Source: Deltaproteobacteria bacterium (GTDB lineage: Bacteria; Desulfobacterota; GWC2-55-46; JADFVP01). From it: a stretch of 33,815 nucleotides of DNA. The position numbers and the translations under genes are program-made. The stretch covers positions 1 to 33,815 of the forward strand of contig JAJRZX010000020.1 in NCBI GenBank assembly GCA_024275045.1, written 5' to 3'. The stretch's first letter is position 1; the number at the start of each line of letters is the position of its first letter. The notes beneath the pieces are model-generated. The model was given only the letters and a program-made list of their open reading frames with translations. It did no database searches and was not told where the DNA came from. Positions 7,979-26,282 of this stretch are shown piece after piece.

Positions 7979-8005
7979 ATTTGACTCCATTAGAGGTAAA
8001 TAAAG

Positions 8006-8440
8006 CTATAAGGACATCATAAAAGTTATATAATCGCCCTTTTCCCTGGGGGTACACTGGCGTTCAAGTACCCATTTGCAGTTTCTCTTGAACCACTTCT
8101 CCACTTTTTTTGGAGTTGTAAAGCGGTCTTTGTTAACGGCAGGGGAGACGGGTTTAATTACCTTGCCGGCAGGTGTTTTGCCGCTCTTTGCGGGGTCTGA
8201 GGTATGGCAGGTGGTGCATCCGCGTTCTTTATGCTTTTTTGTGTGCATGCGTTTGGCAAAAAAGAGTTTTTTTCCTGCCTCAGCGCTGAAGTTCTTTATG
8301 GAAGGGTCTTGTTTTTGCGCTTCTTTGAGATATGAGTCCATGAGAACACTCATCTCAGTACTCAGCTTTGAGCCTGCCATGGCCTCTACTGTAAAAAGGG
8401 TAATTACCAGCAGCGAAGATAAGAGTAATCTGAAGACCAT
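8006..8440 (-). CDS. DUF1924 monoheme cytochrome c (SHP-like)
   Basis: 144 residues with an N-terminal signal peptide (LLLSSLLVITLFTVEAMA) and one haem site, CTTCH at 75-79. The rest matches the DUF1924/SHP (sphaeroides haem protein) family: GKKLFFAKR before the haem, then TSDPAKSGKTPAGK, KPVSPAVNKDRF and VEKWFKRNCKWVLERQCTP. SHP is a high-spin cytochrome whose Asn-ligated haem opens to bind O2, NO or hydroxylamine. The Asn in PAVNKDRF is the likely equivalent ligand, and Cys residues in RNC and RQC could form the family disulphide (inference). It lies between the b561-DHC fusion (23 nt) and the free-standing DHC gene (27 nt), matching the known b561/DHC/SHP module. GGAG precedes the ATG by 10 nt. 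Confidence 0.86.
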   Translation of the reverse strand: MVFRLLLSSLLVITLFTVEAMAGSKLSTEMSVLMDSYLKEAQKQDPSIKNFSAEAGKKLFFAKRMHTKKHKERGCTTCHTSDPAKSGKTPAGKVIKPVSPAVNKDRFTTPKKVEKWFKRNCKWVLERQCTPREKGDYITFMMSL

Positions 8441-8463
8441 ATGTATTAAACTCCTTTTACCCC

Positions 8464-9706: not shown

Positions 9707-11992
9707 CTATTGTTTTTTCTCATACGCGTTATTAACGATACCCTCGTTAATGTACTTGCTGAGGTTCTGAAACTTTAACTTCAGCTCATCCGTGGCTGTC
9801 TGCGCCTCATCTGAGTTGGCTATTACCCTCGGGGTGAGCAGGATTACAAGCTCAGTCCTGTCTTTGGTTATGGAGGTGAATTTAAACAGCTCACCGAGAA
9901 AGGGTATTTTGCTTATAAGTGGTATCTCAGAGTGTGTCTTATTTGTCTTCGTATCTATGAGACCGCCGATGGCGATGGTCTGTCCGTCTTTAATGACCAC
10001 GGAGGTCTCGGCCTCTCTGTTGGTGAAGGATGGGAATTTGCCGTTGCCCACTTCTCTGCTTGTGGAGACATCGCTTATCTCCTGATGCAGCGTCATGGCC
10101 ACCATGCCTGACTCGGAAATCTGCGGGCTTACCGTGAGAACTATACCGGTCTTGCGGTACTCAATACTCTGAATTATACTGGAGGTGGTTGTTACCGCCG
10201 TCTGAGTGGATTGAGTGGCTATGGGCTCGTCGCTGCCAACGGTTATGGATGCCTTGGCGTAGTTTTTGACAAGTATATGAGGGTTGCTGAGTACGTTAAC
10301 CTTGCCGTCGGCGGCAAGGGCCTCTAAAAAACCAAAGAAGTTTTTTGAGTCAGTAACAAGGAGATTAAGCCCCGCGGAAGTCGACGCTCCTATGGGGGTA
10401 GAAATAATTGAGAGGGGGTTATCAATGGTGCCTGAGAATATGCCCGTATTACTCTGCGTACTTACGTTTCCTGAGAGGGCGGACCACTGTATGCCGTATT
10501 TCAGGCTCTCATCAAGGGCTACCTCTACTACCATGGCGTCTATGAGCACCTGTTTGGGGGGGCGGTCAAGCTCTTTGATGGTGCTGAGCAGGTTCTGATA
10601 ATCCCGTTCCGTGGAGCGGATTATAATGGCGTTTGTAGGCTCGTAGATAAATATCTCCATCTTCTGTGTGGTGCTGATGCTCTCTGTACCCGCGGAATCC
10701 TTTGTTGAGGTTGACCCCTGTTTTGCCTGAGAAGCTGCCTTTGTCTTTGTATTGCCCTTGCCTGTTGTGGCGGCGCTGTTGGCGGCCGCGGAGTCAAGGG
10801 CCGTTGTGCTCGAAGTATCGCTCTGCGCCTCATCGCTGTATATCTCAGAGAGTATGCCTTGTATATTGGAGGCAGTATCGTTCTTGACATAGTATATGTG
10901 CGTACTTATTTCATCAGATGAAGACGCCTTGTCCAGCTCCGCTATCCATGTCTTGGCAGAGGCCAGAAGTTTTTTGTTGGCTGATAATACGATAATGCTG
11001 TTAAACCTCTCAATGGGCACGGCGGAGAACTGATTAGAGTCCTTGTCGTAACCAAGGGCGCCGAAGATGTCATGGAGCTCAGCGGCAAGGGTATTTACGT
11101 TAACGTTATTGATGTGAACAAGAGATACGTTCAGTTTCTCAAAGAGGTCTACGTCAAGGGCCTCGATTATGGTAAGAAATTTTTTGATGTTAACGGACGT
11201 CTCTGTGATTATAAGGGTATTGGCCTTGGTGTATGTGGCAATGTTGCCCCCCGGTGATAGGGTGGGTGTAAGTATATCCACTATGTCGGCGGCTGAGATA
11301 AACTCAATAGGCACGAGTACGTTTATCATGGCAGCGCCGCGAGGGATTTTCTGCGGGTCTCTTACCGTATAGAGCCTCAGGTTGCCCTGCTTGGCTGATT
11401 TTGCCAGAACTATGGTGTAGAAATCACCTGTTTTTACCGAGGCCAGACCGTTAACCGCAAGTATTGTCTCAAAGATGCCTGATACGTCTCTTTTTTTAAT
11501 GGGTTTAGTGGTACGGATGGAAATCTTGCGTGTAAGGACCTCGGGGGAGAGTATGAAGTTACGCCCTGTAAGCTCGGAGATAGTCATGATTACGTCTTTT
11601 AGCATGGCATCGGAAAAATTAAGCTTTGCCATGCCTTTTTTCACTCGTGTGGAGGCTCTTTTTTTTGAACGAGTCCTTGTGCCTGATGTTGTCTTTGTCG
11701 CGGCCTGTGACGAAAGAGTATTGGACGGCGGCGCGGTAATGTGTTTCCTCTGGCGAAACGGGTGAGGCGGCGGTGTTATGCCGCCATTATCCTTTGCGGC
11801 TGCCTGGCTTAGGAGCAGGGGAGGCGGCTCCGGAAGCGAGTAATTAAGTATATCTGCCGCCTCGGCAGAGGGCACTAAGTTCTTTGCCTCTGAGTTTGAG
11901 GACGAGAGAGCGATAATGGCTGTGAAGAGGATTGATAGAAGGGATGCCTTGTGTAAGAGAGGCATTTTACTGTAGATTTTTTCTGTGAGCAC
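9707..11992 (-). CDS. gspD: Type II secretion secretin GspD
   Basis: 761 residues: the outer-membrane channel of the type II secretion system. A signal peptide is present (LLHKASLLSILFTAIIALSS). The periplasmic N-domains follow: N0 from about KLNFSDAMLKDVIMTIS, N1 with VPIEFISAADIVDIL, N2 with VSLVHINNVNVNTLAAEL and N3 with YYVKNDTASNIQGIL. Inside N3 is an Ala/Ser/Thr-rich insert of about 55 residues before MEIFIYEPTNAIIIRS. The secretin pore domain shows VLSNPHILVKNYAKA, VIKDGQTIAIGGLID and IPLISKIPFLGELFK, ending in ELVILLTPRVI. The C-terminus is short, with no obvious pilotin-binding extension. The start is GTG with GGAG 10 nt upstream; an ATG at 11965 lacks a clear ribosome-binding site. 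It is the last gene of the operon, about 150 nt after gspC. Confidence 0.95.
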   Translation of the reverse strand: MLTEKIYSKMPLLHKASLLSILFTAIIALSSSNSEAKNLVPSAEAADILNYSLPEPPPLLLSQAAAKDNGGITPPPHPFRQRKHITAPPSNTLSSQAATKTTSGTRTRSKKRASTRVKKGMAKLNFSDAMLKDVIMTISELTGRNFILSPEVLTRKISIRTTKPIKKRDVSGIFETILAVNGLASVKTGDFYTIVLAKSAKQGNLRLYTVRDPQKIPRGAAMINVLVPIEFISAADIVDILTPTLSPGGNIATYTKANTLIITETSVNIKKFLTIIEALDVDLFEKLNVSLVHINNVNVNTLAAELHDIFGALGYDKDSNQFSAVPIERFNSIIVLSANKKLLASAKTWIAELDKASSSDEISTHIYYVKNDTASNIQGILSEIYSDEAQSDTSSTTALDSAAANSAATTGKGNTKTKAASQAKQGSTSTKDSAGTESISTTQKMEIFIYEPTNAIIIRSTERDYQNLLSTIKELDRPPKQVLIDAMVVEVALDESLKYGIQWSALSGNVSTQSNTGIFSGTIDNPLSIISTPIGASTSAGLNLLVTDSKNFFGFLEALAADGKVNVLSNPHILVKNYAKASITVGSDEPIATQSTQTAVTTTSSIIQSIEYRKTGIVLTVSPQISESGMVAMTLHQEISDVSTSREVGNGKFPSFTNREAETSVVIKDGQTIAIGGLIDTKTNKTHSEIPLISKIPFLGELFKFTSITKDRTELVILLTPRVIANSDEAQTATDELKLKFQNLSKYINEGIVNNAYEKKQ

Positions 11993-12141
11993 TGTAGGTA
12001 AACTCCAATTAAGATGAGATTCAATGTCTTACCGATAGGTTCGAGGTATCTTACTATAAAAGACTTGTAAATCTCAACCAGATGCTTAAAAATATTTTTT
12101 ATATTGCAGGAGCAAAGTTCTTCTCATGCAGGTTGATTCTC

Positions 12142-12741
12142 TTACTTCTGTGCGGTGTTTGGCCATCTCTGCGAGACGCTGCGCGTTGTTGAGGGCCAGC
12201 CTCTTCTTTTAGCAGGTACTGCCTGAGTGTTATCGTTCATTACTATCCTGAGAGGCGTATTGCCTCTGCTCAGCAAGACCTCTTTCTCGGTAATCTCTGT
12301 TATCTTAAAACCCGCTATACTCTCACCTACTCTGTAGGACCTGGTCTCATCTTCCTTGCCTTTCTGGCTGATGACAGCGGCATTGCCCTTATTTAAGATG
12401 ATGGTTCCAAGCAGGGTAAGGTTCGGCGCCTTAAGAGGGGCCACGCTCTGTACGGCTTTTGGAGGGGCCTTTGGTGTTATGGGAGCCACATATGGCCTGC
12501 GTGTTGACCTGAATAGATCCTCTGTAACTATCTTATTGTAGGCAGTTCTTCTGAGGTGGCCTTTTTTGACCTGTCTTGGGGCTGACTTTTTCTCAGCCTT
12601 TACACCGGCGGTCTGAACGGTTGGAGCGGTCATCCAGATGCTGATGTTCCAGCCCAGAAGTGCGATTCCCAGGATAATAAGGACTATATTGAGCAGCTTT
12701 GCCTTATGCCCGGAGATGAGATTATCCCCGTAAATATTCAT
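12142..12741 (-). CDS. gspC: Type II secretion coupler GspC
   Basis: 199 residues. GspC is a bitopic inner-membrane protein that links the platform to the secretin through its periplasmic homology region (HR). A single membrane helix is seen near residues 15-35 (LLNIVLIILGIALLGWNISI), then a Pro-rich linker (APITPKAPPKAV), then the HR domain (LTLLGTIILNKGNAAVISQK, SYRVGESIAGFKI, VLLSRGNTPLRI). The usual C-terminal PDZ or coiled-coil region is absent; after the HR only about 25 mostly polar and basic residues remain. The start overlaps the gspM stop by 4 nt (ATGA), implying translational coupling. Its place at the distal end, next to gspD, differs from the common order where gspC leads the operon. 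Confidence 0.86.
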   Translation of the reverse strand: MNIYGDNLISGHKAKLLNIVLIILGIALLGWNISIWMTAPTVQTAGVKAEKKSAPRQVKKGHLRRTAYNKIVTEDLFRSTRRPYVAPITPKAPPKAVQSVAPLKAPNLTLLGTIILNKGNAAVISQKGKEDETRSYRVGESIAGFKITEITEKEVLLSRGNTPLRIVMNDNTQAVPAKRRGWPSTTRSVSQRWPNTAQK

Positions 12742-13310
12742 ATCACTACCCCTTTGTTTTTAATGGCCCCCTCAAGGATGATGGTGATATTCATCTGTGC
12801 GCTGTCTTTTGCGCCAAGGGTCCTTACGTGCATTGAGCGCACACTCATGAGAAGGGGAGAGACCTCTATGTCGTAGAGTAAGAGCGTGAGCTGGCTCAGC
12901 TTGGCCTTGAGATGAAACTCAACAGGTATCCTGATGTATTTGCCTGTCTCCTCAAAGTTCAGTACATTCTCTGAGCTTATGGCTATGTTTTTTCTGGCCA
13001 CCATTTTTTTAAATGCCTCCTGAAGCTCTGCCGCGGCTATGGTGGGTTTTTTGGCCTTCAGTAGACCTTTTTCCAGCGTGCTTATATTGGTCTTATCAAG
13101 CTCAATGAGTTTTTTTACCTCATCGCCGCGAGCCAGGATGGATGATGATGTCTGAAGCAAATCATTATACGCGGTTATCTCTTCCATAGAGCGCTGGTGG
13201 TGATTGTACCCCCATCGTATTATTAAGATAAGTACAAGGGCGCCTATGAGCGCGACGCCCGGAAGTATCCGTCTGTTCTCGCTTATTAAGGATAATACTT
13301 TGTCCCTCAT
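12738..13310 (-). CDS. gspM: Type II secretion inner-membrane protein GspM (PilO-like)
   Basis: 190 residues with one membrane helix at about 17-32 (GVALIGALVLILIIRW), a coiled-coil-like stretch (LLQTSSSILARGDEVKKLIE to STLEKGLLKAK) and a ferredoxin-like periplasmic domain. This is the GspM/PilO layout; GspM pairs with GspL in the inner-membrane platform. Sequence similarity in this family is low, so the assignment leans on architecture and position between gspL and gspC. It overlaps both neighbours by 4 nt. Confidence 0.82.
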   Translation of the reverse strand: MRDKVLSLISENRRILPGVALIGALVLILIIRWGYNHHQRSMEEITAYNDLLQTSSSILARGDEVKKLIELDKTNISTLEKGLLKAKKPTIAAAELQEAFKKMVARKNIAISSENVLNFEETGKYIRIPVEFHLKAKLSQLTLLLYDIEVSPLLMSVRSMHVRTLGAKDSAQMNITIILEGAIKNKGVVI

Positions 13311-14707
13311 AACTTACCCCCAGTGCCTGCGGCCGTATCTGCGATACTCTTGATGTTAAAGTGCATTCTGAAGCGTTCCTTGCCGTCGGCGGTCTTGGCA
13401 ACAGGGCCGTTGAACTCAAAATCCGTCATAAAAGGGGACTTGCTCATAGTCATAATGAGTAGTGATGCCCGTCTGGAATAACCCTCTATGGAAACCGAAT
13501 CTCCCTTGAAATCAAAACCCGTCAGCCAGGTGTCACGGGGCAGCAGCGTGGTGAGCTCTCTTAAGACCTCAAGTGCACCCGGTGAGTATGTTCCGTTTAT
13601 TTTCTCAAGAACAGCCGCCTGCTCCGCAAGGGTATTATGTTTTGAGGTGAGGGCCTTAAGCACCTCTTTTTTAGCCCTTACTTCCGTAAGGTCTCCCTCA
13701 AGGGCGCGAAGCGTTGTCCAATCTTTTAGCATATACGAAGAGCCGGCAAAGAGTGCGAGGATAAGGACTAAACCCGTTAGCATGAGGTTGTTCAGATGCG
13801 GGGTCCGTCCTCTGTTATGAGCTGATGGCGGAGCAAGGTTTATCTTCATCCGCCCCTTGCCCACAAGACTAAGGGCAGCTCCAAGCGCTGTTGCGGCCCG
13901 ATTTGGAAGGCCAAGCTCCGCAAGCCCCTCGGCCTTTACGGGAAGGGATATCTCCTCGGCTATGTTCTTAAGAAAATCACTGCGCGGCTCATCATCAGAG
14001 ATGAATATACCTTCATCAAGGTGCCTCTCATCCATGGGCCCTGTAAGGCTTAGGCGTGAGTGGTCAAGCTCTTTTTCAAGAAAGCCAAGACACTCGGCCT
14101 GCGGCTCCATACATTTTTCCAGACGTATGCTCTTTGAGTACACGGGGATAAGGTCTGAGAATATATCAAGGGTCATATCGCCTTGATTCAGCCCTATTAA
14201 GGCAATGTTTTTCTCAGGCAATATGTTCTTGGAGAAATATAATGCGTTAAAGAGCGACGAGTGCCACGCCGTGAGGCTTGATAGCGGTAAACCGGCCTCA
14301 GAGAAACTGTTTACCGCATTGTCTATAACATCTTTTTTGGCCGCGGTGAGTAGAATGGAGAAGACCTTCTGCTCTTTTTTAAGTATCTGAAACCCGTGTG
14401 ATACATCCTCAGTGGCGAATGGTATGTGTTTTTCCAGCTCAAAGCCCAGTATACTTTTAATGGATTCGCTCTTTGCCGCCGGTATTTTAAGCGCCATGGA
14501 GAGCGACGTCTCTCTTGGAAGCGCCACTGCGATGGCTACGTTCTTAAGACCTTTTTCTTCGATATAGGACTTAATCTCATTAATCCTGTCATTAAAGGTT
14601 ATGCCCTTTAATGTTAGATTACCTTTTATCTCCGTCTTGAAGAGCGAGGACTTCAGATGAACCATTGACCATGATGCCTGTCTTGTCTCTATGCCTATAA
14701 CATCCAT
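13307..14707 (-). CDS. gspL: Type II secretion protein GspL (PilM/PilN-like)
   Basis: 466 residues. The first ~310 form an actin/ATPase-fold cytoplasmic domain (PilM-like; IPAAKSESIKSILGFELEKH and IALIGLNQGDMTLDIF), which recruits the GspE ATPase. A single membrane helix follows (LMLTGLVLILALFAGSSYML), then a coiled coil and a PilN-like periplasmic domain (LLPRDTWLTGFDFKGDSVSI) that pairs with GspM. The length is typical. It ends in a 4-nt overlap with gspM and begins 49 nt after gspK. Confidence 0.88.
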   Translation of the reverse strand: MDVIGIETRQASWSMVHLKSSLFKTEIKGNLTLKGITFNDRINEIKSYIEEKGLKNVAIAVALPRETSLSMALKIPAAKSESIKSILGFELEKHIPFATEDVSHGFQILKKEQKVFSILLTAAKKDVIDNAVNSFSEAGLPLSSLTAWHSSLFNALYFSKNILPEKNIALIGLNQGDMTLDIFSDLIPVYSKSIRLEKCMEPQAECLGFLEKELDHSRLSLTGPMDERHLDEGIFISDDEPRSDFLKNIAEEISLPVKAEGLAELGLPNRAATALGAALSLVGKGRMKINLAPPSAHNRGRTPHLNNLMLTGLVLILALFAGSSYMLKDWTTLRALEGDLTEVRAKKEVLKALTSKHNTLAEQAAVLEKINGTYSPGALEVLRELTTLLPRDTWLTGFDFKGDSVSIEGYSRRASLLIMTMSKSPFMTDFEFNGPVAKTADGKERFRMHFNIKSIADTAAGTGGKL

Positions 14708-14756
14708 TTTTTTACCCTGTGGTGAAGTTGCAATCCTGTTGTATTAATGCGAAGTA

Positions 14757-15797
14757 TCAGTTAAGGGCCTGGGCCTCATCTTCCCAGTAAACTACCAGGG
14801 GATCGCTCCTCTCAGGTACTCGTACGGCTATGGCCTTTACCATAACCTTCATGCCCCGTACCTCGCCCTCTGCGTGAATTGTAAAATCCCTTGAGGTTAT
14901 GCCTCCTCCGTACTTTGGCCAGTCAAGGAGCCCCTCTGTCTCTCTACGGAGCATAATCTCCATGGACTTACCCTTGCCAAAGACCGCGTCAAGCACAGTG
15001 GCGTCCGCGGTATTCAGGTTTATCCTGCCCTCGCCGACAACGGTAATGTACGGTGCAAGCCCTTTGTAAGCGGGTTCTGCGCCGTAGCTTTTGCTCTGCA
15101 AATTCGCTCTCATCTCATATGGTATATTGCCGTCACCGTAGAATATGGCAGGCGTTACGCCTTTTAAGAGAAGCAGTTCTTCCGTGGTATCGAACTGTCC
15201 GTCCTTGGCGCCATATGGTTCTTCCAGAGAGCCGTAGTACTCATCCTCTGCGCCGTTAAAGTGAAATGCGTGGTTTTTGTCCCTCCAGTCAAGTATGGAG
15301 TCGGCGATGACATCACGTGTTGTGGTCTCCACGCCTGTTAATAAAAGAAGCTCTTTTATCTGTTCACGCGTAGCCGTATTAATATTCAGCTTGCCCTCTT
15401 CGTCATCAATATGATATCTCACATGCCCCTCGCCGAGGTTGAAGTCTCTGCTCACGGTAATGGTCTGTATATCATGGGCTTCCTGCTTGCCAAGTGTTAC
15501 TTCACCTTTATTGTTCCTGAATACAATATCGTAATTCGCGCCAAGCTCTGCAAGGCCCATGTTTATACCGGCAAAGGCAAGGTAACGGGCCGCTGTCTCG
15601 TCTTTAAGGTTTCTTACCGTATCAGTCTCAACTCGCATTGTATAAGCAAACTCAATTACCATAAACATGAGAAAGGCAAGTACCCAGAGGACCAGGAGAA
15701 GGGCGATACCTCTCTCGTTATTTATAAGATCGGGTGTTTTTTGTGCAGATGCCTCTGGACCCAATCTTTTGATGCGGGATTTTAAGTGCATTCCCAT
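14757..15797 (-). CDS. gspK: Type II secretion minor pseudopilin GspK
   Basis: 346 residues: the largest minor pseudopilin, which caps the pseudopilus tip with GspI and GspJ. The prepilin-like cleavage site is at Gly30 (NNERG followed by IALLLVLWVLAFLMF). The mature +5 residue is Leu rather than Glu, which is a normal feature of GspK. The body contains the helix-hairpin-helix-like pattern of GspK (DDEEGKLNINTATREQIKEL, GRINLNTADATVL). Acidic residues near EDEYYGS may form the family calcium site. It starts 5 nt after gspJ, with AGGAAAA upstream of ATG. Confidence 0.92.
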   Translation of the reverse strand: MGMHLKSRIKRLGPEASAQKTPDLINNERGIALLLVLWVLAFLMFMVIEFAYTMRVETDTVRNLKDETAARYLAFAGINMGLAELGANYDIVFRNNKGEVTLGKQEAHDIQTITVSRDFNLGEGHVRYHIDDEEGKLNINTATREQIKELLLLTGVETTTRDVIADSILDWRDKNHAFHFNGAEDEYYGSLEEPYGAKDGQFDTTEELLLLKGVTPAIFYGDGNIPYEMRANLQSKSYGAEPAYKGLAPYITVVGEGRINLNTADATVLDAVFGKGKSMEIMLRRETEGLLDWPKYGGGITSRDFTIHAEGEVRGMKVMVKAIAVRVPERSDPLVVYWEDEAQALN

Positions 15798-15802
15798 TTT
15801 TC

Positions 15803-16480
15803 CTAAGCCCCCCCGGGAGCCGAGGGCTTTGCTGCTCTCGGGTCATATGTAACCCCTACGGGCATGGTTATTGAGAGCGGCATAATGTGTTCCGTGAATA
15901 TGAACTCAACGCGCACCGCGCGAGGCAGCACCTTATTCGCTCCTATGTCCCACTTATCCAGCCATCCGCCATCGCCGAGATAAGAGAAACGCAGACTCTT
16001 TATACTCGGGCCGAGCTCAATTACTCTCTTGGCCTGATTAACACTGTCCACGGCAAGGGGTACGGTCTTTTCCTCAATCCTGAGACCATTATCACCAGCT
16101 CTGTAGTTAACAAGCATGGTACCGCCCCAGGGCAGCCCGGCCGCCGCGCTGTGGTGTGATGTTACAAAGGCTAACTCATTCTCCTCTCCCTTGAATATAT
16201 AGTTTTCTTGCCCGTTATTATTCTCTCTGTACGGGTACATGGAGGCTACATCCGTACTCAGCCTCTTTATTACAAACCTGCGCGTCTCCGCGTCTTCTAT
16301 AGCTTCTTCACCCTTTTGCCAGGAATGCTGACCCAGCCTCACGGATGAGAGTACAAGTCCTATCATGACCACGAGTATTGAGAGGGCGAGAATCGTCTCT
16401 ATAAGCGTAAAACCTCTCTCGTCCCTCATGGAGGTCCCGGGGCTCTGAGCGCTGATTAATCTTGAACTCAAAAGACCCAT
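15803..16480 (-). CDS. gspJ: Type II secretion minor pseudopilin GspJ
   Basis: 225 residues. The prepilin cleavage motif RG/FTLIE is at Gly23, with Glu at +5 and a hydrophobic helix (TILALSILVVMIGLVLSSVR). The downstream GQHSWQKGEEAIEDAETRRF and RLSTDVASMYPYRE are GspJ-like. A shorter form starting at Met18 (MRDERG) would give a more usual leader of 6 residues, so the true start could be 16429. It lies 6 nt after gspI. Confidence 0.9.
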   Translation of the reverse strand: MGLLSSRLISAQSPGTSMRDERGFTLIETILALSILVVMIGLVLSSVRLGQHSWQKGEEAIEDAETRRFVIKRLSTDVASMYPYRENNNGQENYIFKGEENELAFVTSHHSAAAGLPWGGTMLVNYRAGDNGLRIEEKTVPLAVDSVNQAKRVIELGPSIKSLRFSYLGDGGWLDKWDIGANKVLPRAVRVEFIFTEHIMPLSITMPVGVTYDPRAAKPSAPGGA

Positions 16481-16486
16481 GATCTC

Positions 16487-16960
16487 TTATTCCTCCAGAA
16501 ATATTGACTTCATTGATGTCAGTCTATATGTTGCCTCTTCTCTATTAGCCTTTCTCACGCTTACAACTACTTTCATAATGTAGAGATAGCCGTTGTTATC
16601 GGTACTGGCGTTCTCAAAGGGAGTTACCTTTACCTGCCATCTAAGGTCTCCTTCTCCGGTGCCCTCTGTAATGCCGGGATAGATGTCTTTATCCACCAGG
16701 GTCTCGGCCATTTTTTCTCTTGCAAGCAGCACGGCCTCGGTATGTTTGTTTGCCGCTACGGCAAGGCCAAGCCCGCCTGAGAAGAGCTGCATTACCATGA
16801 GTATGCCTATGCCAAGTATGGCAAGGGAGACCATTACTTCAAGCAGAGTAAAGCCGCTTTGTGCGCCTGCTCTTTTAAGTGCCTTTACCTTTAAGTCAGC
16901 TCTTTTCTCAGAGGTAAAGTCGTTATTCTTTGCAGCTCTTGCCGTCACATTAACACCCAT
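16487..16960 (-). CDS. gspI: Type II secretion minor pseudopilin GspI
   Basis: 157 residues. The SG/FTLLEVMVSLAILGIGIL prepilin motif has its cleavage Gly at 36 and Glu at +5. The following KHTEAVLLAREKMAETL is characteristic of GspI, which starts the pseudopilus tip complex. The leader is unusually long and basic (35 residues before the Gly), and no good ribosome-binding site precedes the ATG, so initiation may be by coupling from gspH, whose stop is 5 nt upstream. Confidence 0.9.
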   Translation of the reverse strand: MGVNVTARAAKNNDFTSEKRADLKVKALKRAGAQSGFTLLEVMVSLAILGIGILMVMQLFSGGLGLAVAANKHTEAVLLAREKMAETLVDKDIYPGITEGTGEGDLRWQVKVTPFENASTDNNGYLYIMKVVVSVRKANREEATYRLTSMKSIFLEE

Positions 16961-16965
16961 ACAAG

Positions 16966-17412
16966 CTATGAGATGAGGTGGCTGATGCGCACCTTGCCTG
17001 TTGAGGGTTCAACTTCAATAGTATAGGAGTTCTTGTTTTTATTGCTCTGCACCTTAAGAACCCCGCCGCTTGAACTGCCTCCGGGGTAAAAAGAGATAAC
17101 CCCGTTTTTTGATGATACCTCTGTGTCGCCTGCGGCAACAACCTCGCGTTCCGGGTCCGCGGCTCCTACGGCTTTAATGACAAGCCTGTCTCCGCGGGCC
17201 TCGGCGTAGTAGACGTTTCTCTCACGGAGCGCTCTGTTTCTTGAGTACTTTAAGGAGGCAGCCATCTTTCGTGTTGTTGATTTAAGGCCGATTTTGCCGA
17301 TTCCCGATAATATGGATGGGAATATAAGGGATACGGAGAGGGTAAAGATCATGAGTACGACCATTACCTCAAGAAGAGTAAAACCCCGCTCTTCAGAAAG
17401 CCGCCGCCTCAT
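16966..17412 (-). CDS. gspH: Type II secretion minor pseudopilin GspH
   Basis: 148 residues. A short leader ends at Gly10 (SEERG/FTLLEVMVVLMIFTLSV), with Glu at +5. A GspH-type body follows, including STTRKMAASLKYSRNRAL, found in GspH/FimT pseudopilins. GspH links the tip complex to the GspG shaft. The start overlaps the gspG stop by 4 nt. Confidence 0.9.
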   Translation of the reverse strand: MRRRLSEERGFTLLEVMVVLMIFTLSVSLIFPSILSGIGKIGLKSTTRKMAASLKYSRNRALRERNVYYAEARGDRLVIKAVGAADPEREVVAAGDTEVSSKNGVISFYPGGSSSGGVLKVQSNKNKNSYTIEVEPSTGKVRISHLIS

Positions 17413-17888
17413 GGCAGACCTTTCCAGCTCACTATGTCAAGGTTCTTGCCTTCTCCGCCTTCAAGGGCGTCCGCGCCAAGGGATACAAGGTCATAGTCTC
17501 CGTGTTTGCCGGGCGACGTGTATACGTAATCATTGCCCCAGGCGTCAACGGGCAGTTCTTTTTTAAGATAAGGACCGTCCCAGCCCCTTGTAACAGAGGA
17601 GGGTTTTACACGCAGGGCCTCAAGCCCCTCGGATGAGTCAGGGTAGCTGCCTACATCAAGGCGGTACATATCAAGGGCCGCGCCAAGGAGCTCTATCTGC
17701 GCGTAGGTGGTCTTGACCTTGGATTGCTCTACTTTACCAAAAAATCTCGGGGCAACAAGTGTTGCCAGCAGCCCTATGATGATGACAACTACGATTATCT
17801 CAATAAGGGTGAAGCCATCTTGCGTACTTAGCCGTCCTTTTACATATGATCCGGTAGAGATACTCTTTCTTTTTTTGAATATATTCAC
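17409..17888 (-). CDS. gspG: Type II secretion major pseudopilin GspG
   Basis: 159 residues: the main shaft subunit of the pseudopilus. The cleavage site DG/FTLIEIIVVVIIIGLLATL is at Gly25 with Glu at +5. The GspG signature follows: AQIELLGAALDMYRLDVGSY, SSEGLEALRVKPS, then DAWGNDYVYTSPGKHGDYDL, which carries the Ca-binding loop. The leader is longer than usual. It lies 17 nt after gspF and overlaps gspH by 4 nt. Confidence 0.95.
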   Translation of the reverse strand: MNIFKKRKSISTGSYVKGRLSTQDGFTLIEIIVVVIIIGLLATLVAPRFFGKVEQSKVKTTYAQIELLGAALDMYRLDVGSYPDSSEGLEALRVKPSSVTRGWDGPYLKKELPVDAWGNDYVYTSPGKHGDYDLVSLGADALEGGEGKNLDIVSWKGLP

Positions 17889-17905
17889 AATTTAATCTCC
17901 TTGCA

Positions 17906-19129
17906 TTACATTGGCATATCATTAAGGCTAAATACCGCAAGCATAAGTGAGATGACAACAAAACCCACTATAACGGCCATAACAAGTATGATGGCAGGTT
18001 CCAGCAGTGATAAAAGCCTTTTTACGGCCGTGCCTACATCGCGGTCGTATTTATCTGAGAGCCTGATGAGGGTCTCGTCAAGTTTGCCTGTCTCTTCGCC
18101 TACGGCCAGCATATGGATGGCCAGAGGAGGAAAGACAGAGGTCTCTTTCAGTGGTTCCGTAAGCCCTCGGCCTCTGCGCACCCCGTCAATGGCAGGGGTT
18201 ATCATGCGTGTCATATAGTTGTTGCCAACTGTTCTGACGGCAATCTTAAGGGATTCGAGTATGGGAAGCCCGCCCTGCATGAGGGCCCCCAGGGTTCTTG
18301 AGAACCTGGAGACCGCGGCCTTTTTAAGTATGGGGCCGAAGAGCGGTATGCGGAGTTTAAAGCGGTCAAACTTTACGCGTCCTTTCTCGGTCTTCTGTGT
18401 GGCCTTAAAAGCAAAGACAGAGGCCACGATGAGTATGAGTATAACCGGCCAGAACCGTGTAAGGGTGCCGCTGATATTAAGGAGTATCTGCGTGGGCAGA
18501 GGCATCGCGCCGCCCATGTCTTCCAGTATCACGGAGAACTTGGGGATAAAGACAAGGAGCATGAGGGCCACGGCGCTGCCGCCTACCAGGACAAGGAGCG
18601 CCGGGTATATGAGGGCGGACTTTATGTCTTCCTTGAGCTTTCGGGCGTCCTCGATGAATTTTTTAAGCCGTGATAGAACAATCTCCAGCGAGCCCCCGGC
18701 CTCTCCGGCGCGAACGGTGTTGATGTAGATCTCAGAGAAGAGCTGAGGGTGTTTATCAAGTGCGTCGGCAAAGGTCTCGCCTGCCTGAATGTCTTTATGT
18801 ACCTCGATTATAATTTGTTTGAATGCCTCGTTTCTCTCAAGCTCCGCAAGTATGGAGAGGGAGCGGTCAAGGGCAAGCCCGGCCTCTAGCATATCCGAGA
18901 GCTCTTGAGTAAAACCCACGACAAGGTGCGCCGATGCCTTACGCTTAAATAAGCTGAAGCCCCCACGTTTGCGGGCAGCGTTTTTTTCGTCAGCGCTGCT
19001 GCCGATGCGTATGGGAAAATACCCCATCTCATGGAGCTTATCCACAAGTGAGTCCCTGTCTTTGGCCTCAAGTGAGCCCTTGACGAATTTGCCGGCCGCA
19101 TCTGTGGCGTGGTAGAGAAATTGTGCCAT
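17906..19129 (-). CDS. gspF: Type II secretion inner-membrane platform protein GspF
   Basis: 407 residues, the usual GspF length. Two homologous GspF/PilC domains are present: one around residues 70-195 (VGFTQELSDMLEAGLALDRS, AGEAGGSLEIVLSRL) and one around 270-395 (RFSRTLGALMQGGLPILESL, AVGEETGKLDETLIRL). Three membrane segments are seen (ALIYPALLVLVGGSAVALML, FWPVILILIVASVFAF, AIILVMAVIVGFVVISLMLA). GspF couples GspE ATP hydrolysis to pseudopilin extraction. It lies 57 nt after gspE. Confidence 0.95.
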   Translation of the reverse strand: MAQFLYHATDAAGKFVKGSLEAKDRDSLVDKLHEMGYFPIRIGSSADEKNAARKRGGFSLFKRKASAHLVVGFTQELSDMLEAGLALDRSLSILAELERNEAFKQIIIEVHKDIQAGETFADALDKHPQLFSEIYINTVRAGEAGGSLEIVLSRLKKFIEDARKLKEDIKSALIYPALLVLVGGSAVALMLLVFIPKFSVILEDMGGAMPLPTQILLNISGTLTRFWPVILILIVASVFAFKATQKTEKGRVKFDRFKLRIPLFGPILKKAAVSRFSRTLGALMQGGLPILESLKIAVRTVGNNYMTRMITPAIDGVRRGRGLTEPLKETSVFPPLAIHMLAVGEETGKLDETLIRLSDKYDRDVGTAVKRLLSLLEPAIILVMAVIVGFVVISLMLAVFSLNDMPM

Positions 19130-19186
19130 TGTGAATCAGTTCTCCGGTTGCTTGTCATGATGCACGGTAGTACCACGGGCACTTTA

Positions 19187-20890
19187 TTAAGTAAGTGTGA
19201 CCCGTCCTACCTCTTCAATTGTTGTAATGCCTGCGAGGACTTTTTTCCAGCCGTCTTCGCGAAGCGTTACCATGCCGTTCTCAATGGCTTTTTGACGAAT
19301 TACATCAGAGCTGTTTCTTTCAACTATAAGGTGCCTTATCTCATCGTTTACGAGCATAAGCTCAAATAACCCCGTACGTCCCTTGTACCCGGAGTTGCTG
19401 CACTCCACGCAGCCCTTGCCTCTGAAGGTAACAATATCCTTATCATTAAGGTCTTTTACGTGTCTGTACTCATCGGCGATGCGCCTTCTAACCTCGGGTT
19501 CCGGTGTAACCTCCACCTTGCAGTTGGTGCATATTACACGGACAAGGCGCTGGGCAAGCACGCCTAAGAGGCTTGATGAGATAAGAAAACCCTCAACGCC
19601 CATATCTATAAGGCGCGTTATGGCGCCGGGTGCGTCATTGGTATGCAGCGTGGAGAGTATCATGTGCCCTGTTAACGCAGAATGAATGGCAATGTCCGCG
19701 GTCTCTGTATCCCGTATCTCACCTACGAGCACTACGTCGGGGTCTTGCCTTACTATGGAGCGCAGGCCGCTCCCAAAGGTAAGCCCAATCTTGGGTTTAA
19801 CCTGAATCTGGTTGATACCCTCAAGCTTGTACTCAACAGGGTCTTCGATGGTTATTACTTTTTTGCTTGATATATCCACCTTTGATAAGGCGGCGTAAAG
19901 CGTTGTGGATTTGCCGCTGCCCGTGGGCCCTGTTACAAGGACCATGCCGTGCGGCTGGTTTATCATATGCGAAAATGCGTCTCTCTTGGACTTTGAGAAA
20001 CCAATAGACTCTAACGTTCTCACGCCGTCCGGGTCAAGGAGCCTCATTACAAGAGACTCACCGTGAAGCGTGGGGATTATGGAGACACGTATATCAATGC
20101 TCTTGCCGCTGAGTTTTAGTTTTATGCGTCCGTCCTGCGGAAGCCTTCTCTCGGCGATATTGAGCTTGGACATTATTTTTATTCTTGAGGAGATGGCCGG
20201 GTGCAGGCGTTGGGGCATGGACTCCACGTCATACATTATGCCGTCTACCCTGTAGCGGATATGAATGGTGTTCTCATAAGGCTCTATATGAATATCACTG
20301 GCCTTTCTCTCAATGGCGTTGCGGATAAGCATATTGACAAGGTTTATAACCGGGGCCTCAAGGGCCATGTCTTTTAGCTGCTCTACGTCATCTATGTCAA
20401 GGTCGGCCGTGGAGTCTTTCTCGTCTATATCCTCAATTATCTTCTCCATGGTTACGGGACCATCGCCGTAATAAGACTCAATGGCATGGAGTATATCGCT
20501 CTCAGAGCCAATGACCACATCTACCTGAAGTCCCGTGGCAAAGGCAAATGCCTCTGCCGGCAGGTGATTAAGGGGATCGGCTGAGGCTATGGTGAGAATA
20601 CCGTTGCGTACTCTTATGGGAACGGCTTTATAAAACCGCATGAACTTAAGAGAGGGGACGATATCAAGGGCAGGGGGGGTCTTGGAATAATTATCTGTTG
20701 TGATGCAGGGGATCTCAAGCTTATTGCTGAGGACACGGAGCATGTCTTGCTCGGAGACGCAGCCAAGTTTGACAAGACGGACGCCTAACTTCTCTCCTGT
20801 GCGTGCCTGCTCCTCAAGGGCTGAGGCAAGTATCTTCTCATCTATTAACCCGTCATTGAGAATCAGCTCGCCTAATGGTATGGCTTTCAT
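19187..20890 (-). CDS. gspE: Type II secretion ATPase GspE
   Basis: 567 residues: the cytoplasmic hexameric motor of type II secretion. The N-terminal domain (about 1-150) is of the GspE/PilB type. The ATPase core has Walker A GPTGSGKS at 321-328, the Asp box IEDPVEYKLEGINQ, Walker B-like DPDVVLVGEIRD and the His box GHMILSTLHTND. A zinc-binding tetracysteine region follows (CTNC, then CVECSNSGYKGRTGLFEL). First gene of the eleven-gene operon. GGAG lies 11 nt before the ATG. Upstream is a 160-nt spacer with the terminator of the exoprotein gene and an AT-rich stretch that presumably holds the operon promoter, though no clear -35/-10 pair is evident. Confidence 0.96.
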   Translation of the reverse strand: MKAIPLGELILNDGLIDEKILASALEEQARTGEKLGVRLVKLGCVSEQDMLRVLSNKLEIPCITTDNYSKTPPALDIVPSLKFMRFYKAVPIRVRNGILTIASADPLNHLPAEAFAFATGLQVDVVIGSESDILHAIESYYGDGPVTMEKIIEDIDEKDSTADLDIDDVEQLKDMALEAPVINLVNMLIRNAIERKASDIHIEPYENTIHIRYRVDGIMYDVESMPQRLHPAISSRIKIMSKLNIAERRLPQDGRIKLKLSGKSIDIRVSIIPTLHGESLVMRLLDPDGVRTLESIGFSKSKRDAFSHMINQPHGMVLVTGPTGSGKSTTLYAALSKVDISSKKVITIEDPVEYKLEGINQIQVKPKIGLTFGSGLRSIVRQDPDVVLVGEIRDTETADIAIHSALTGHMILSTLHTNDAPGAITRLIDMGVEGFLISSSLLGVLAQRLVRVICTNCKVEVTPEPEVRRRIADEYRHVKDLNDKDIVTFRGKGCVECSNSGYKGRTGLFELMLVNDEIRHLIVERNSSDVIRQKAIENGMVTLREDGWKKVLAGITTIEEVGRVTLT

Positions 20891-21010
20891 AGCGTGTATT
20901 GCTCCGGGTTAAGGTTTTTTTTACAATATAATTATGTTCAGTCTATATAAGTAAGTCTTCTTTTTAAAAATAATAAGCAGGGTGTATTGTTTTTGAAAAA
21001 AAAAGGGGTT

Positions 21011-21040
21011 CTCTCCGCGGTCTGTATCAACCGCGGAGAG
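21011..21040 (-). terminator. Strong rho-independent terminator of the exoprotein gene
   Basis: A perfect 10-bp GC-rich stem, CTCTCCGCGG against CCGCGGAGAG, with a 10-nt loop, extended by GGG/CCC across a 2-nt bulge. On the minus strand it is followed by nine T (20996-21004). It lies 12 nt past the stop of the large secreted-protein gene and separates it from gspE. A TTTTTATTTT run on the plus side lets it work in both directions. Confidence 0.9.
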
Positions 21041-21051
21041 CCCTTTTTATT

Positions 21052-24000
21052 TTACCGGCGTATCATCTTTGGTGCTGCCGGTGCTGTCGCCGATGCTGGT
21101 GCTACCGGCGGGGTTGGAGGTGTAAGTTCCGTGCTGCCCGGTACGGGTACCTGTACATAGCCCAGGAGGTCCACAGGTATTGAGATAACCTGCGCAGGAT
21201 CCGGAGTTGTCCTGTACTCAAGGGCGCCTATATCCGTGAGGCAATCTGGCTGCCTGAAGATAAGGTCCGCATCGTACCCCGGTGCCTTGAGGAACCTTCC
21301 CTTGCCAATGGCAGGCGAGTTGGACTGAAGGTGCCAGTCCAGCGCCGCGGCGTCAACAAACATGGGGTCAGCATCAATGTTGTGCTGTCTGCCCTTCTGC
21401 TTTGGATTGTCAACTACACCGTTGATGATGTTGAACTCTTTTACGAGCATGGTGTCAGAGTTCTGGCTGGTCTCCCAGGGGAGGTTAACCGCAGGGTTGT
21501 CCACGTGGATATTGTCAATTGTCCACTGGTAGTTCTGCCCTGAGGTGTAGTCCAGATCCTCGCCAAACGGCACATCGTAGTGCAGGCTCCAGTTGTCCCA
21601 CAGGATGTTGTTGAATACCTGCACATCACTGAAGTAGGGCCATTTAGGCGCGGTGCTGTCTGCGTTGTACTCATGACCGTGACGCTCGCTGTCAATGGCT
21701 CCGCCTCTGGGGTCGTAAGTACCGGCTACGATATTACCTGTGATGGTATTGTTGTAGACCTTTGCGCGAAGAGTATCATCAAAGGCGATGGCCCCTCCGC
21801 GTGCAGTGGTCTCGCTTCTGTCATCGGCGATGTTCTCGGCGATAACGTTGTTGTAGACGTTAACCACAGAGATATCGTCGCCTACGTCCTCGAAGCTGAT
21901 ACCGCCGCCGTCATCTGCGGCAAAGTTACGGAGTATGACGTTGTCGTACAGGTCTACGGGGCCGGAATCCTCGAAGAAGAGGCCTCCGCCGTGATCATCG
22001 CTCCTGTTCTCCATGATCATGTTGCCGTAGATCTTCAGGTGGTCCTTTATCTCATACAGAGCCATGGCACCGCCGTAATCAGGCGAGTAGTTGCGATAAA
22101 GGAGATTGTTGAAGATCTCGTACGTACCCGGAGGTGTACTGTAGAGCTGATCATCGTAGCTGTGGTCAAGAAGCGGCTCATCAGGGCCGTACTCGGGCTC
22201 ATCGTTGATGCTGATGCCGCCGCCGTAGCCTTCGTAGTTGCCGTTCTCGGATATAAGGTTACTCCATATGCGCACGTCGTGGTTTGAGTGGTGCATCCAT
22301 ATTGCTCCGCCGTATCCGCCGGAGTTCTGGCTTATGATATTGTTGTTGATGTCTATGTTAGTGTTGCCGTAGTCAGCGAAGATTCCGCCGCCTATACCAA
22401 GGGTGCCCGGGTATCCTCCGGTAATGGTAAAGCCGGTGATGGCAATGTTACTTACCGAGCCAAGCATGCCGCCCTTACCAATGTAGAAGACCGCACCTGA
22501 AGAGCCGCTGAATGATCCGGTATTGGAGAGGTTCAGAGGATTCATGTCGTTTAGAACAAGGCCGTCAATCATGGACTCAAATGGACCTGAACCTATGATC
22601 TTTATATCAGAATCAATGATATGTACGGTCTCGTTATATGTGCCCGGTGCTACCATTACAAATACGGGCCTTACGGCTATAAGGTTATCCATAGCCTCGG
22701 TGATGGTGGCGTATGGTGAAGCGCTGCTTCCGTTACCGGCTCCTACCTGGGCCGCTGCGTCCACATACATGGTGTGAGCGGCAAGATAAGCCGTCCACTC
22801 TGCTGTGGCGTTGATTGTGGCAAGGTCTATCTGAGTGCTGTTGGAGAGACCTTCTGTTGTGGCCACTATCATGGGGCCGGGTATTGAGCTCTGAGGTATG
22901 TCAACTGTTATAGATGTGTCGGACCATGATATTACCTTGAGCTCCTGACCGCTGAGAGATACAGTTGAGTGTCCCTGAGCATCACCGAAGTTTACGCCGG
23001 TGATTGTATAAGGGTTAGTGGGACCGCTGAAGGCAAGTATCTGATTCGCGTTCTGCTCCTGCTGGCGAATGACTTTTATGCACTGGCGGGTCCTTGGTGT
23101 AAGGCCGTTTTTCTGCAGGTACTGCTTGGCCTTGGGGTTGTTTTTCAAGAACTCGTTTACTACAGGGTTGTTAATGGCGTTTTTCTTTCTCCATCCAACA
23201 AGCTGTATATCAAGGGCGTTGGAGCCTGAGTATACGGCGTTCTGAAAGACTCCGTACTCGCCGCCTGGTCCGTAGTTCCTGGCCTGAGGCGCACCGTTTA
23301 CTATTACAGGCGCGTTGGCAGGCAGGGCCGGAAGCGCTGCGGCAGGTCCCGCGCCTACGCCTAAGGGCAGCGGCGGTCCCAGTGGCAGGAGCGACCAGTC
23401 GGCCTCGAACTTGTATCCGCCCTGGCCAAAGGTGTAGTTAAGACCAAGTGGCAGGTAATCGGTTCTGTAGCTCTGAACCGGTAGTGATGCCGTCGGTGTT
23501 CCCGGTAGTGGTGTAGCGTAGGTAAGAGTGGGGTCGTTGGCCAGGTAAATATGTACTCCCGGCGCTGAGCGTCTCTCTACCTCGGGTTTCTGGGCCTGGC
23601 CGGCTACAAGGGGATCCGGTTCCGTTGCAGGGCATGCTCCTGTGAGAAAATCCGTAGGAGGCTGCCAGAGAGGCGAGTTGGGCTGCTTCTCATAGCAACG
23701 CGGATGACCCATGAAGGCCTGGCCGAGTTTGTAGCCATGATGGTCGTATATGCCAACACCTACGTGTGGTATACCCTGTTTCTCCCACCAGAGTATGGAC
23801 TGAGGGAAGGTGTCGATGATAAGGTCGTCAAATACGCCGCCCTCTATCTCACCGGCACGCGGTACGAGGGTGGTGGCGCCAAAGTCAAGGTCGTTTCTCT
23901 GGCCGCCTACAACAACTACGGCCTGTGTCTCAGTTCCGGCCGGTGATGCAGAGAAGCCGTTTGGTAAAGCAGCGCTTACCAGGTAGTTGCCTGGCGCTAC

Positions 24001-25368
24001 GTCCCTGAACTCGAACTGACCGAACCTGGGGCCCTTGTAGATACCGCCCCACTCGTCAACTTCCATATCACCCCTGTTATAGACTACCATGCCGGGGAAA
24101 AGCGAAGTGGCAGGGCAGAGTTCTTGCGAGGGAATGAACTCCTTGGGGCTGTAGCCCGCTATATGTCCCTGGCCTCCGGCGCGTGATTCTTCGTATACGC
24201 CGGTTGTGGAAGTGGCCACGACAATTGGGTTACCAAGTCCGTCGTACTGAATTGGATCGTTGTAAAGGTTGACGGTAACTCCTGTAAGGAGCGGGTCTTC
24301 ACTCTCGGTATACACACCGGTGGGACCCCATGTGCCGGTGGTCTTGTCGTAGGCAAGATGCTCATTGTATACTGAGCCGATTATCTCGCCAACACCTGCG
24401 GGTATCTGCTCCACATGGAGCTTTGTCCTGTAGTCTGCGGTGAACCATCCGATGTCTCTGTTACTCTCATCGAAGTTCTCGCATATCGTGGGATATGGGA
24501 AGATGGGAGAGGTAACATCGTCATAGCATGTCTGGGCCATAACGCCCCTGTATGTATTGGGTAGTGACGACATGTCTACTGAGAGATGTCCCATTACCTC
24601 AACCTCGGCAAGATTATCGAAGTTGAAGAAGCCGTCAGCCATGGGATCGTCATATTCATTTATTTTACCTGGAGCAGTTAACTCGTTTTTCCATACACTG
24701 CCGTCGGTAAGGCGCAGGTCTATTTTCACGCCGTTAAGGTTTGTTCCTGTTGTATCGTCTACTACATAACCGTTAATCCTTGCGAAAAAGCGCGGTATGT
24801 AGATCTGGACATTGGGATCGGGCAGGAGAGGGTCAACAGTAATCTGCTGTTCCTGCCAGATGTAATCAAGGGGTATGTCTGATGCGAATATCTTGTAATT
24901 TCCGGGAGGTACGTTATCGAACCGGAAGGTACCGTCTACGTTAGAGCCCAGAGCCGTGGCCACGGGGTGCGGTGGTGCGGCCTCTGTATCCCAGAGTATG
25001 GCAACGCCGTCAGGCATAAACATGTTGGGATATGTGCAGTCCTCAGCCGGATTGGTGGGAGGCGTGTCAAGGAGAACCTCCTGCCCCGTAAGCGGGTCTA
25101 TGACAGGGTCGCCGTTTACGTCAAACTGAATATATGATGCCCTCTGTCCCTGAGCAGGGTGGTAACCCTCTGTTAAGTCGGTGCAGAGATGTCCCACACG
25201 ATCGTAGTTGCATATCTGCGGGACCTCATGGGGGGAAATTATCTCAAATGTGTCCGTACCGTCAGCATCAAGAAAGGTACCTGTAATGGTACCGGTGCCG
25301 GTAGGGGAAGGCGGAAGTTGTCCCAGGTTGGGTACAAAGGCGTACCATGCCAGGTAGGCCCCTGCCAT
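21052..25368 (-). CDS. Giant secreted beta-helix protein, main (3') part of a frameshifted gene
   Basis: 1438 residues from an ATG at 25368, but the frame is open and protein-like for 30 codons further upstream, back to about 25458, with no start. This is the body of the gene whose 5' part is 25374-26282. Several SdrD-B/carboxypeptidase-regulatory-type beta-sandwich modules come first, with repeats such as DGTFRFDNVPPGNYKIFAS and QFEFRDVAPGNYLVSAALP. An IPT/TIG-like domain follows near 780-850. A right-handed parallel beta-helix runs over about 865-1290, with PbH1-like turns (NNNIISQNSGGYGGA, DNVILRNFAADDGGG). A choice-of-anchor-Q-like end follows (DADPMFVDAAALDWHLQSN, DIGALEY), then a Pro/Ala tail. 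Likely a cell-surface or extracellular protein; ligand or enzymatic role unknown. No catalytic motif was recognised. Confidence 0.8.
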   Translation of the reverse strand: MAGAYLAWYAFVPNLGQLPPSPTGTGTITGTFLDADGTDTFEIISPHEVPQICNYDRVGHLCTDLTEGYHPAQGQRASYIQFDVNGDPVIDPLTGQEVLLDTPPTNPAEDCTYPNMFMPDGVAILWDTEAAPPHPVATALGSNVDGTFRFDNVPPGNYKIFASDIPLDYIWQEQQITVDPLLPDPNVQIYIPRFFARINGYVVDDTTGTNLNGVKIDLRLTDGSVWKNELTAPGKINEYDDPMADGFFNFDNLAEVEVMGHLSVDMSSLPNTYRGVMAQTCYDDVTSPIFPYPTICENFDESNRDIGWFTADYRTKLHVEQIPAGVGEIIGSVYNEHLAYDKTTGTWGPTGVYTESEDPLLTGVTVNLYNDPIQYDGLGNPIVVATSTTGVYEESRAGGQGHIAGYSPKEFIPSQELCPATSLFPGMVVYNRGDMEVDEWGGIYKGPRFGQFEFRDVAPGNYLVSAALPNGFSASPAGTETQAVVVVGGQRNDLDFGATTLVPRAGEIEGGVFDDLIIDTFPQSILWWEKQGIPHVGVGIYDHHGYKLGQAFMGHPRCYEKQPNSPLWQPPTDFLTGACPATEPDPLVAGQAQKPEVERRSAPGVHIYLANDPTLTYATPLPGTPTASLPVQSYRTDYLPLGLNYTFGQGGYKFEADWSLLPLGPPLPLGVGAGPAAALPALPANAPVIVNGAPQARNYGPGGEYGVFQNAVYSGSNALDIQLVGWRKKNAINNPVVNEFLKNNPKAKQYLQKNGLTPRTRQCIKVIRQQEQNANQILAFSGPTNPYTITGVNFGDAQGHSTVSLSGQELKVISWSDTSITVDIPQSSIPGPMIVATTEGLSNSTQIDLATINATAEWTAYLAAHTMYVDAAAQVGAGNGSSASPYATITEAMDNLIAVRPVFVMVAPGTYNETVHIIDSDIKIIGSGPFESMIDGLVLNDMNPLNLSNTGSFSGSSGAVFYIGKGGMLGSVSNIAITGFTITGGYPGTLGIGGGIFADYGNTNIDINNNIISQNSGGYGGAIWMHHSNHDVRIWSNLISENGNYEGYGGGISINDEPEYGPDEPLLDHSYDDQLYSTPPGTYEIFNNLLYRNYSPDYGGAMALYEIKDHLKIYGNMIMENRSDDHGGGLFFEDSGPVDLYDNVILRNFAADDGGGISFEDVGDDISVVNVYNNVIAENIADDRSETTARGGAIAFDDTLRAKVYNNTITGNIVAGTYDPRGGAIDSERHGHEYNADSTAPKWPYFSDVQVFNNILWDNWSLHYDVPFGEDLDYTSGQNYQWTIDNIHVDNPAVNLPWETSQNSDTMLVKEFNIINGVVDNPKQKGRQHNIDADPMFVDAAALDWHLQSNSPAIGKGRFLKAPGYDADLIFRQPDCLTDIGALEYRTTPDPAQVISIPVDLLGYVQVPVPGSTELTPPTPPVAPASATAPAAPKMIRR
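21600..22500 (-). repeat. Beta-helix coding repeats (PbH1-like) within the exoprotein gene
   Basis: Roughly seven to eight imperfect coils of about 25-40 residues recur in the translated protein, each with an N-rich turn (YNNVIAEN, YGNMIMEN, YDNVILRN, FNNLLYRN) followed by GGG/GGA plus a short beta strand (GGGISFED, GGGLFFED, GGAIAFDD). The repeats are degenerate at DNA level, so the boundaries are approximate. Confidence 0.7.
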
Positions 25369-25373
25369 GGTGC

Positions 25374-26282
25374 CTACGTCATTGGGACGAAGTATAATGT
25401 CCCAGCACTGCGAACCCTCTTCTGTAGCAATCCAGAACCAGCCTGTATCAGGACCAAATCACAGGTCAGGAGAGGATCGCCGCTGACAGGGTCTGTAGGC
25501 ACTGTAACACCGGGAGGCACTGCCATAACCTCATGCTCGCCGGGTTTCAGGTTGCTGAAGTAATAAAGTCCCTGAATGTCAGGGCCTGCAAGCGGCGGCA
25601 TATCGGCCATTGTCTGCGTGCCTGATACACCGGACTGCTCAAAGTTGCCATCTTCATCAAAGATGTAGAAGGTTACACCCGGTAAGGCCGGGTCATCAGG
25701 GTAGTCATCCTCGCTGTTTACGTACAGATCAGAAAAGGCGTAAAGAAGGGCGTGTGCCGTTGGAAGTTCGCCTGTAACCGGATCCATTGGAGGAATGAAA
25801 GCGTCCATGGGGGAAAGTAATGCACCTGGCGCTGTATCGAGCAGAGAGAACTCACGGCTCGTAACATCATGGCCGGGGGCGCTGAACATTACCACATACT
25901 CCTCACCAACGGGAACAAATGCCTCATAAGTGTTATCCGTGGTAGGTGCCACATAACACTCAAAGGTTCCGCCGTGGTGCATGTTCTGCACCATGACTGA
26001 GGCGTCGTTTATGGCGCCGCCTGCGGGGGCCGGTGTGGGGATAGTAGGCCCGGGAGTGAGAACGCCTGTAATGGGGTCAATAAATGCCGGTCCCGTAGTG
26101 CTCGCGCCCGTATAGATTGAACCGTATATTCGTACTACTGATGCACCGGCCAGATCAGCGTCGTTCTGCGTCTGATAGCAGGTTGCCTTTGCGCTGCCGG
26201 CTGTTAGGAAAACTACCATGGCGGCGATAAATGCCATAAGCACAGGTAGTTTTCTATTTTGATAAATGATATTGGGCTTCAT
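25374..26282 (-). CDS. Signal-peptide 5' part of the frameshifted giant exoprotein gene
   Basis: 302 residues as it stands, starting at an ATG with AGGAG spaced 6 nt upstream. A clear signal peptide opens it (LPVLMAFIAAMVVFLTAGSAKA, cleavage near ATC). The body has beta-sandwich-type modules rich in Pro and Gly (VRIYGSIYTG, GVTFYIFDEDGNFEQSG, GLYYFSNLKPGEHEVMAVPP). The last ~27 residues after Asp275 look out of frame. Shifting at that point gives FGPDTGWFWIATEEG, which runs on into the 1438-residue frame. The two pieces together make 1743 residues. As written, the fragment would be exported without the beta-helix. Frameshift, sequencing error or true inactivation cannot be told apart here. 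Confidence 0.82.
   Translation of the reverse strand: MKPNIIYQNRKLPVLMAFIAAMVVFLTAGSAKATCYQTQNDADLAGASVVRIYGSIYTGASTTGPAFIDPITGVLTPGPTIPTPAPAGGAINDASVMVQNMHHGGTFECYVAPTTDNTYEAFVPVGEEYVVMFSAPGHDVTSREFSLLDTAPGALLSPMDAFIPPMDPVTGELPTAHALLYAFSDLYVNSEDDYPDDPALPGVTFYIFDEDGNFEQSGVSGTQTMADMPPLAGPDIQGLYYFSNLKPGEHEVMAVPPGVTVPTDPVSGDPLLTCDLVLIQAGSGLLQKRVRSAGTLYFVPMT
25454..25462 (-). other. Frameshift site joining the two exoprotein reading frames
   Basis: At minus-strand GAT-TTG-GTC the codons leave a sensible protein frame. One additional T in the T-run (plus-strand AAA at 25456-25458) would read GAT-TTT-GGT-CCT and continue without a stop to 21052. The whole span of 5231 nt plus one base is exactly 1744 codons. 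The other frame has a TGA just upstream of this point, so the crossover is confined to a few bases. Confidence 0.8.

Follow-up and report, generated by a model that had tools for sequence, protein, structure and literature searches.

Reading frames at the locus

The window, the whole stretch of 33,815 bases that was analysed, is an entire contig (G000:C144) of a draft genome of 156 contigs and 2.28 Mb, and it carries two long minus-strand reading frames in close succession. The question that they raise is whether they represent two genes or a single gene whose frame is broken and, in the second case, what broke it. The upstream frame (25374..26282, minus strand, 302 aa) has an AAGGAG ribosome-binding site just 5' of its ATG, a signal-peptide-like start and the first Ig-like modules, and is out of frame past about residue 275. 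The downstream frame (21052..25368, minus strand, 1438 aa) contains SdrD_B, CarboxypepD_reg and SpaA-like modules, a TIG domain at about aa 785-835 and a right-handed beta-helix at roughly aa 880-1350. Its ATG, at 25368, lies 5 bases past the stop of the 302-aa frame.

Upstream of this ATG, the second frame remains open as far as a TGA at 25461-25459, and the stretch encodes FGPDTGWFWIATEEGSQCWDIILRPNDVGT; it opens with the coding-strand TTT that corresponds to the plus-strand AAA at 25456-25458. The complete interval, 21052-26282, measures 5231 nt, which is 1 nt below 1744 codons. A preliminary description of this DNA had reported the two frames with their coordinates, the AAA and the one-base shortfall, and these numbers are correct. 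Neither frame has a further stop or frame break in its share of more than 1700 codons.

Homologues across the junction

With the two halves used as separate queries, no joined sequence being built, five homologous frames from two related genomes were found to match both of them (L026, L027, L029 and L030 of G009, and L028 of G001, the two Deltaproteobacteria MAGs used as relatives). The alignments of all five to the window switch from frame -1 to frame -3 around 25440-25536, with frame -1 ending at 25536-25467 and frame -3 taking over from there, an agreement well past what chance would give. The homologues themselves are uninterrupted: 1588 aa from stop to stop in G009:C142, 1437 aa in G009:C27 and 2302 aa in G001:C18, with more distant copies of 1170 aa (G009:C4) and 1494 aa (G009:C33). 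G009 thus carries at least four members of this large-protein family (C142, C27, C4 and C33).

Homology of the upstream frame stops at residue 254-269 of 302 and its last ~27 residues, which have no match to the relatives, are therefore out of frame. In the second frame, homology resumes at 25458-25440, up to 30 codons 5' of the first ATG, and the alignments begin at residue 1, 4, 6 or 7 of FGPDTGWFWIATEEGSQ..., that is, upstream of the ATG. These 30 codons (25369..25458, minus strand), which are conserved among relatives and would be lost if translation began at the ATG, bear out the earlier remark that the sequence ahead of the 1438-residue start is protein-like.

More distant homologues, which a contig scan with a single protein did not find, were recovered when the scan was made with an alignment. 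One-frame homologues are also present in MAGs of Chloroflexi, KSB1, Calditrichota, Acidimicrobiales/Actinomycetes and Ferrigenium, so that homologues of six bacterial groups run on through the junction. The N-terminal regions of twelve relatives (Deltaproteobacteria, Chloroflexi, a Ferrigenium, Calditrichota and actinobacterial MAGs, without KSB1) are aligned unbroken across the site, and the motif W/F-x-EEGG-x-WD-x-L-x-PGDPGT-x-AGAYL-x-W spans it; the KSB1 copy is likewise in a single frame. The ATG at 25368 falls inside this conserved region, where it is a normal internal Met codon of the full-length protein (GTMAGAYL), and no good ribosome-binding site was found for it. Among the relatives, every locus that includes the junction is one frame, and none has a frame change there. 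The comparison with relatives that the preliminary description had called for thus finds the gene intact wherever the junction is included and the split shared by none, and its proposal of two halves of one gene is confirmed by homology to both halves and by the unbroken relatives.

Judging from these alignments, the two frames make up the two parts of a single gene for a putative large exported multi-domain protein, and at the break (25456..25475, minus strand) a short coding-strand T-run within about these positions is, on balance, one base short. A search of its own genome found no second copy of the gene.

Homologues occur in Ferrigenium straubiae KS, an iron-oxidiser MAG (L179), and in the Dive96 Chloroflexi MAGs (L175 and L177), which come from an iron-rich black smoker (PMC9769843); L175 and L177 each have two paralogues side by side.

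Cause of the frame break

We consider that a single gene, intact in its relatives, has most probably been split here by a sequencing or assembly error, to which we give a probability of about 0.63. One base would be missing by error from the short T-run near 25456-25475, the gene would look split for that reason, and the organism itself probably makes the protein in full. A survey of frame breaks contributes evidence to this reading. Stop-to-stop frames taken from relatives (1.29 Mb) were set against 1.08 Mb of the 2.28-Mb draft, of which ~374 kb were covered by homologues, and the candidates were then read by eye. Two further single-base breaks were found, in hisB (L081 ~4800-4811, corresponding to G000:C15 ~24800, where the IGPD profile is split into 1-90 and 104-144) and in tig, which encodes trigger factor (L140 ~10321-10335, G000:C39). 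Both have the same direction as the break in the large gene, each being one base short at a coding-strand T-run, and family searches found only one hisB and only one trigger factor in the genome. Since breaks of the same type hit two ordinary housekeeping genes, a technical cause is favoured, in keeping with what a large survey expects of singleton frame transitions (PMC3711429). Because the scan missed the tig break, which was spotted by eye, the number of breaks is a lower bound. A reverse scan of 376 kb of G001 gave one raw candidate break.

Several other apparent breaks in the survey were rejected on reading: those at L077 and L075 are adjacent genes (kinase and regulator), that at L138 is likewise a pair of adjacent genes (receiver and HDOD), and those at L157, L088, L135, L072 and L046 are adjacent genes or antisense shadows.

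Three considerations run counter to an error. The events are just three in ~374 kb, real one-base deletions favour runs too, and the T-runs here, of 3-4, are shorter than those where most platforms fail. The next explanation is a real and recent one-base deletion that would make the gene a recently formed pseudogene or a strain-level variant within the population, which we regard as possible and clearly less probable than an error. The first part would then be exported as a short fragment and the second, if made at all, would arise by restart at the ATG, without a signal peptide. A break unshared by relatives fits such a deletion equally well, large surface proteins are frequently lost or variable, the genome has no other copy of the gene, and the position of the ATG 5 bases beyond the first stop would allow a restart. 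That ATG, however, is an ordinary Met codon with no good ribosome-binding site and not an evolved start, and the breaks in hisB and tig would then have to mean a real loss of histidine synthesis and of trigger factor. The lack of further decay (extra stops or frame breaks) in the more than 1700 codons rules out an old pseudogene only.

Programmed -1 frameshifting, in which a minority of ribosomes would make the long protein, would take place at U_UUG, formed by the third base of a GAT and the following TTG (25458-25455). This tetramer (of the type Z_ZZN) stands exactly at the frame change, -1 is the direction required, and in-frame T_TTG is rare, with 2 occurrences in 4708 codons, this site included. 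Its presence is not independent evidence, however, because the loss of a base from a longer T-run gives the same tetramer. No X_XXZ_ZZN heptamer exists in 25374-25505, and the 70 nt 3' of the site fold no better than shuffled sequences (z -0.01, in a fold model without pseudoknots), so that no stimulatory structure was detected there. No relative has a frame change at the site. In E. coli, U_UUG raises shifting to no more than 1.8-3.6 times a 0.064% background, even when a strong pseudoknot is present (PMC4066793), which also counts against this mechanism, and we judge it very improbable. A shade less probable still is its specific form in which the break is genuine and inefficient -1 slippage at U_UUG would yield mostly a short exported fragment and little full-length protein, as a dosage control of one lineage.

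With regard to the cause, the preliminary description had left an assembly error, a recent pseudogene and a rare programmed frameshift side by side; an error or a recent mutation is now favoured, and the programmed shift is disfavoured by the absence of the break in relatives and by hisB and tig being broken alike. Its statement that the site is not a classical slippery one stands as far as the heptamer is concerned and had overlooked the U_UUG tetramer, a genuine -1 motif, though one with almost no activity in E. coli.

That the frames are two separate genes, fused by chance in the relatives, is scarcely credible: both are long and each has an ATG, but up to 30 conserved codons ahead of the second ATG would go, the second product would have no export signal, and the last ~27 residues of the first frame would still be without homology.

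Type II secretion neighbourhood

An intrinsic terminator (20992..21045, minus strand), in which a T run comes after a long GC hairpin, lies directly 3' of the large gene, with an MFE of -32.4 kcal/mol and a z of -7.2. Directly downstream, on the same strand, is the type II secretion (T2SS) cluster gspE-F-G-H-I-J-K-L-M-C-D (9707..20890, minus strand). Because this strong terminator separates it from gspE, the large gene is probably its own transcription unit, and a polar effect of the break on the T2SS genes, which we had considered, was dropped for the same reason.

T2SS genes adjoin the large gene in 7 of the 17 neighbourhoods examined, belonging to Deltaproteobacteria, KSB1 and Calditrichota (the window, L026, L028, L180, L186, L187 and L188). 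None were seen near L027, L029, L175, L177, L179 and L182, and several other loci end early. The order large gene, gspE, gspF and so on is common to both Deltaproteobacteria MAGs, and in KSB1 and Calditrichota the large gene is placed after gspD. Since the linkage is found ahead of the cluster in some groups and behind it in others, it suggests that the large protein may be a type II substrate.

The cluster of the window looks complete from gspE to gspD, with a GspL of the PilM/PilN type. It is followed at 7307-9615 by cytochrome b561/dihaem, DUF1924 and dihaem cytochrome genes, and in L026 a b561 gene likewise comes after gspD. Just upstream of the C33 copy of G009 lies a GspC-like frame (31% identity; L030 8831-9505).

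Protein domains and fold

Pfam searches of the family identify SdrD_B, CarboxypepD_reg and SpaA-like modules, a TIG domain and the beta-helix; no whole-length model exists in Pfam or NCBIfam, and no paper on a family of large Ig/TIG/beta-helix proteins was found in the literature. The 302-aa frame has, by eye, a hydrophobic signal-like N-terminal stretch ending in TAGSAKA, which makes the earlier designation of the protein as secreted plausible. A structure model of residues 776-1425 of the 1438-aa frame (mean pLDDT 76.8, pTM 0.85) supports a right-handed beta-helix fold for the predicted C-terminal domain, and the profile of this domain has a local match to pectinesterases.

If the whole protein is made, its N-terminal signal would direct export by the Sec pathway, the outer membrane would then be crossed probably by means of the neighbouring type II system, and the product, with its Ig-like modules and pectin-lyase-like beta-helix, would act at the cell surface or outside the cell.

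For annotation, the two frames should become one frame-broken gene, and further single-base breaks should be anticipated elsewhere in the draft. There is nothing unusual about the frameshift itself. Possibly weightier is a by-product of the analysis, a family of large exported Ig/TIG/beta-helix proteins that recurs beside T2SS genes in different phyla, and this recurrence makes the cargo of the type II system a directly testable question.

Comparison with known systems

The C-terminal domain shares its fold with right-handed beta-helix (pectin-lyase-like) enzymes, namely LnbX (5gqc), Pel9A (1ru4) and pectin methylesterases (Foldseek E 1.7e-6 and weaker, TM about 0.4); identity to these enzymes is 12-13%, and the likeness is one of fold, with no enzymatic activity claimed. 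The TIG and early beta-helix region matches weakly the LIC10774/LIC10365 family surface protein (NF047854; E 3.6e-9, 36 bits), far under the family cut-off of 380 bits, and the remainder of the protein differs.

With known programmed -1 frameshifting at Z_ZZN or X_XXZ_ZZN sites (PMC4066793), the locus has in common the -1 direction and the U_UUG tetramer at the site, whereas the motif is here among the weakest, is accompanied by no stimulator that we found, and is not conserved. A further precedent is the singleton frame transitions described by Antonov et al. 2013 (PMC3711429), which likewise occur in one genome only, with homology on both sides and no notable recoding motif, and from which the present break shows no substantial difference. 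That survey of frame transitions expects singletons with a BLASTp-validated frameshift to reflect errors of sequencing and not true indels (PMC3711429).
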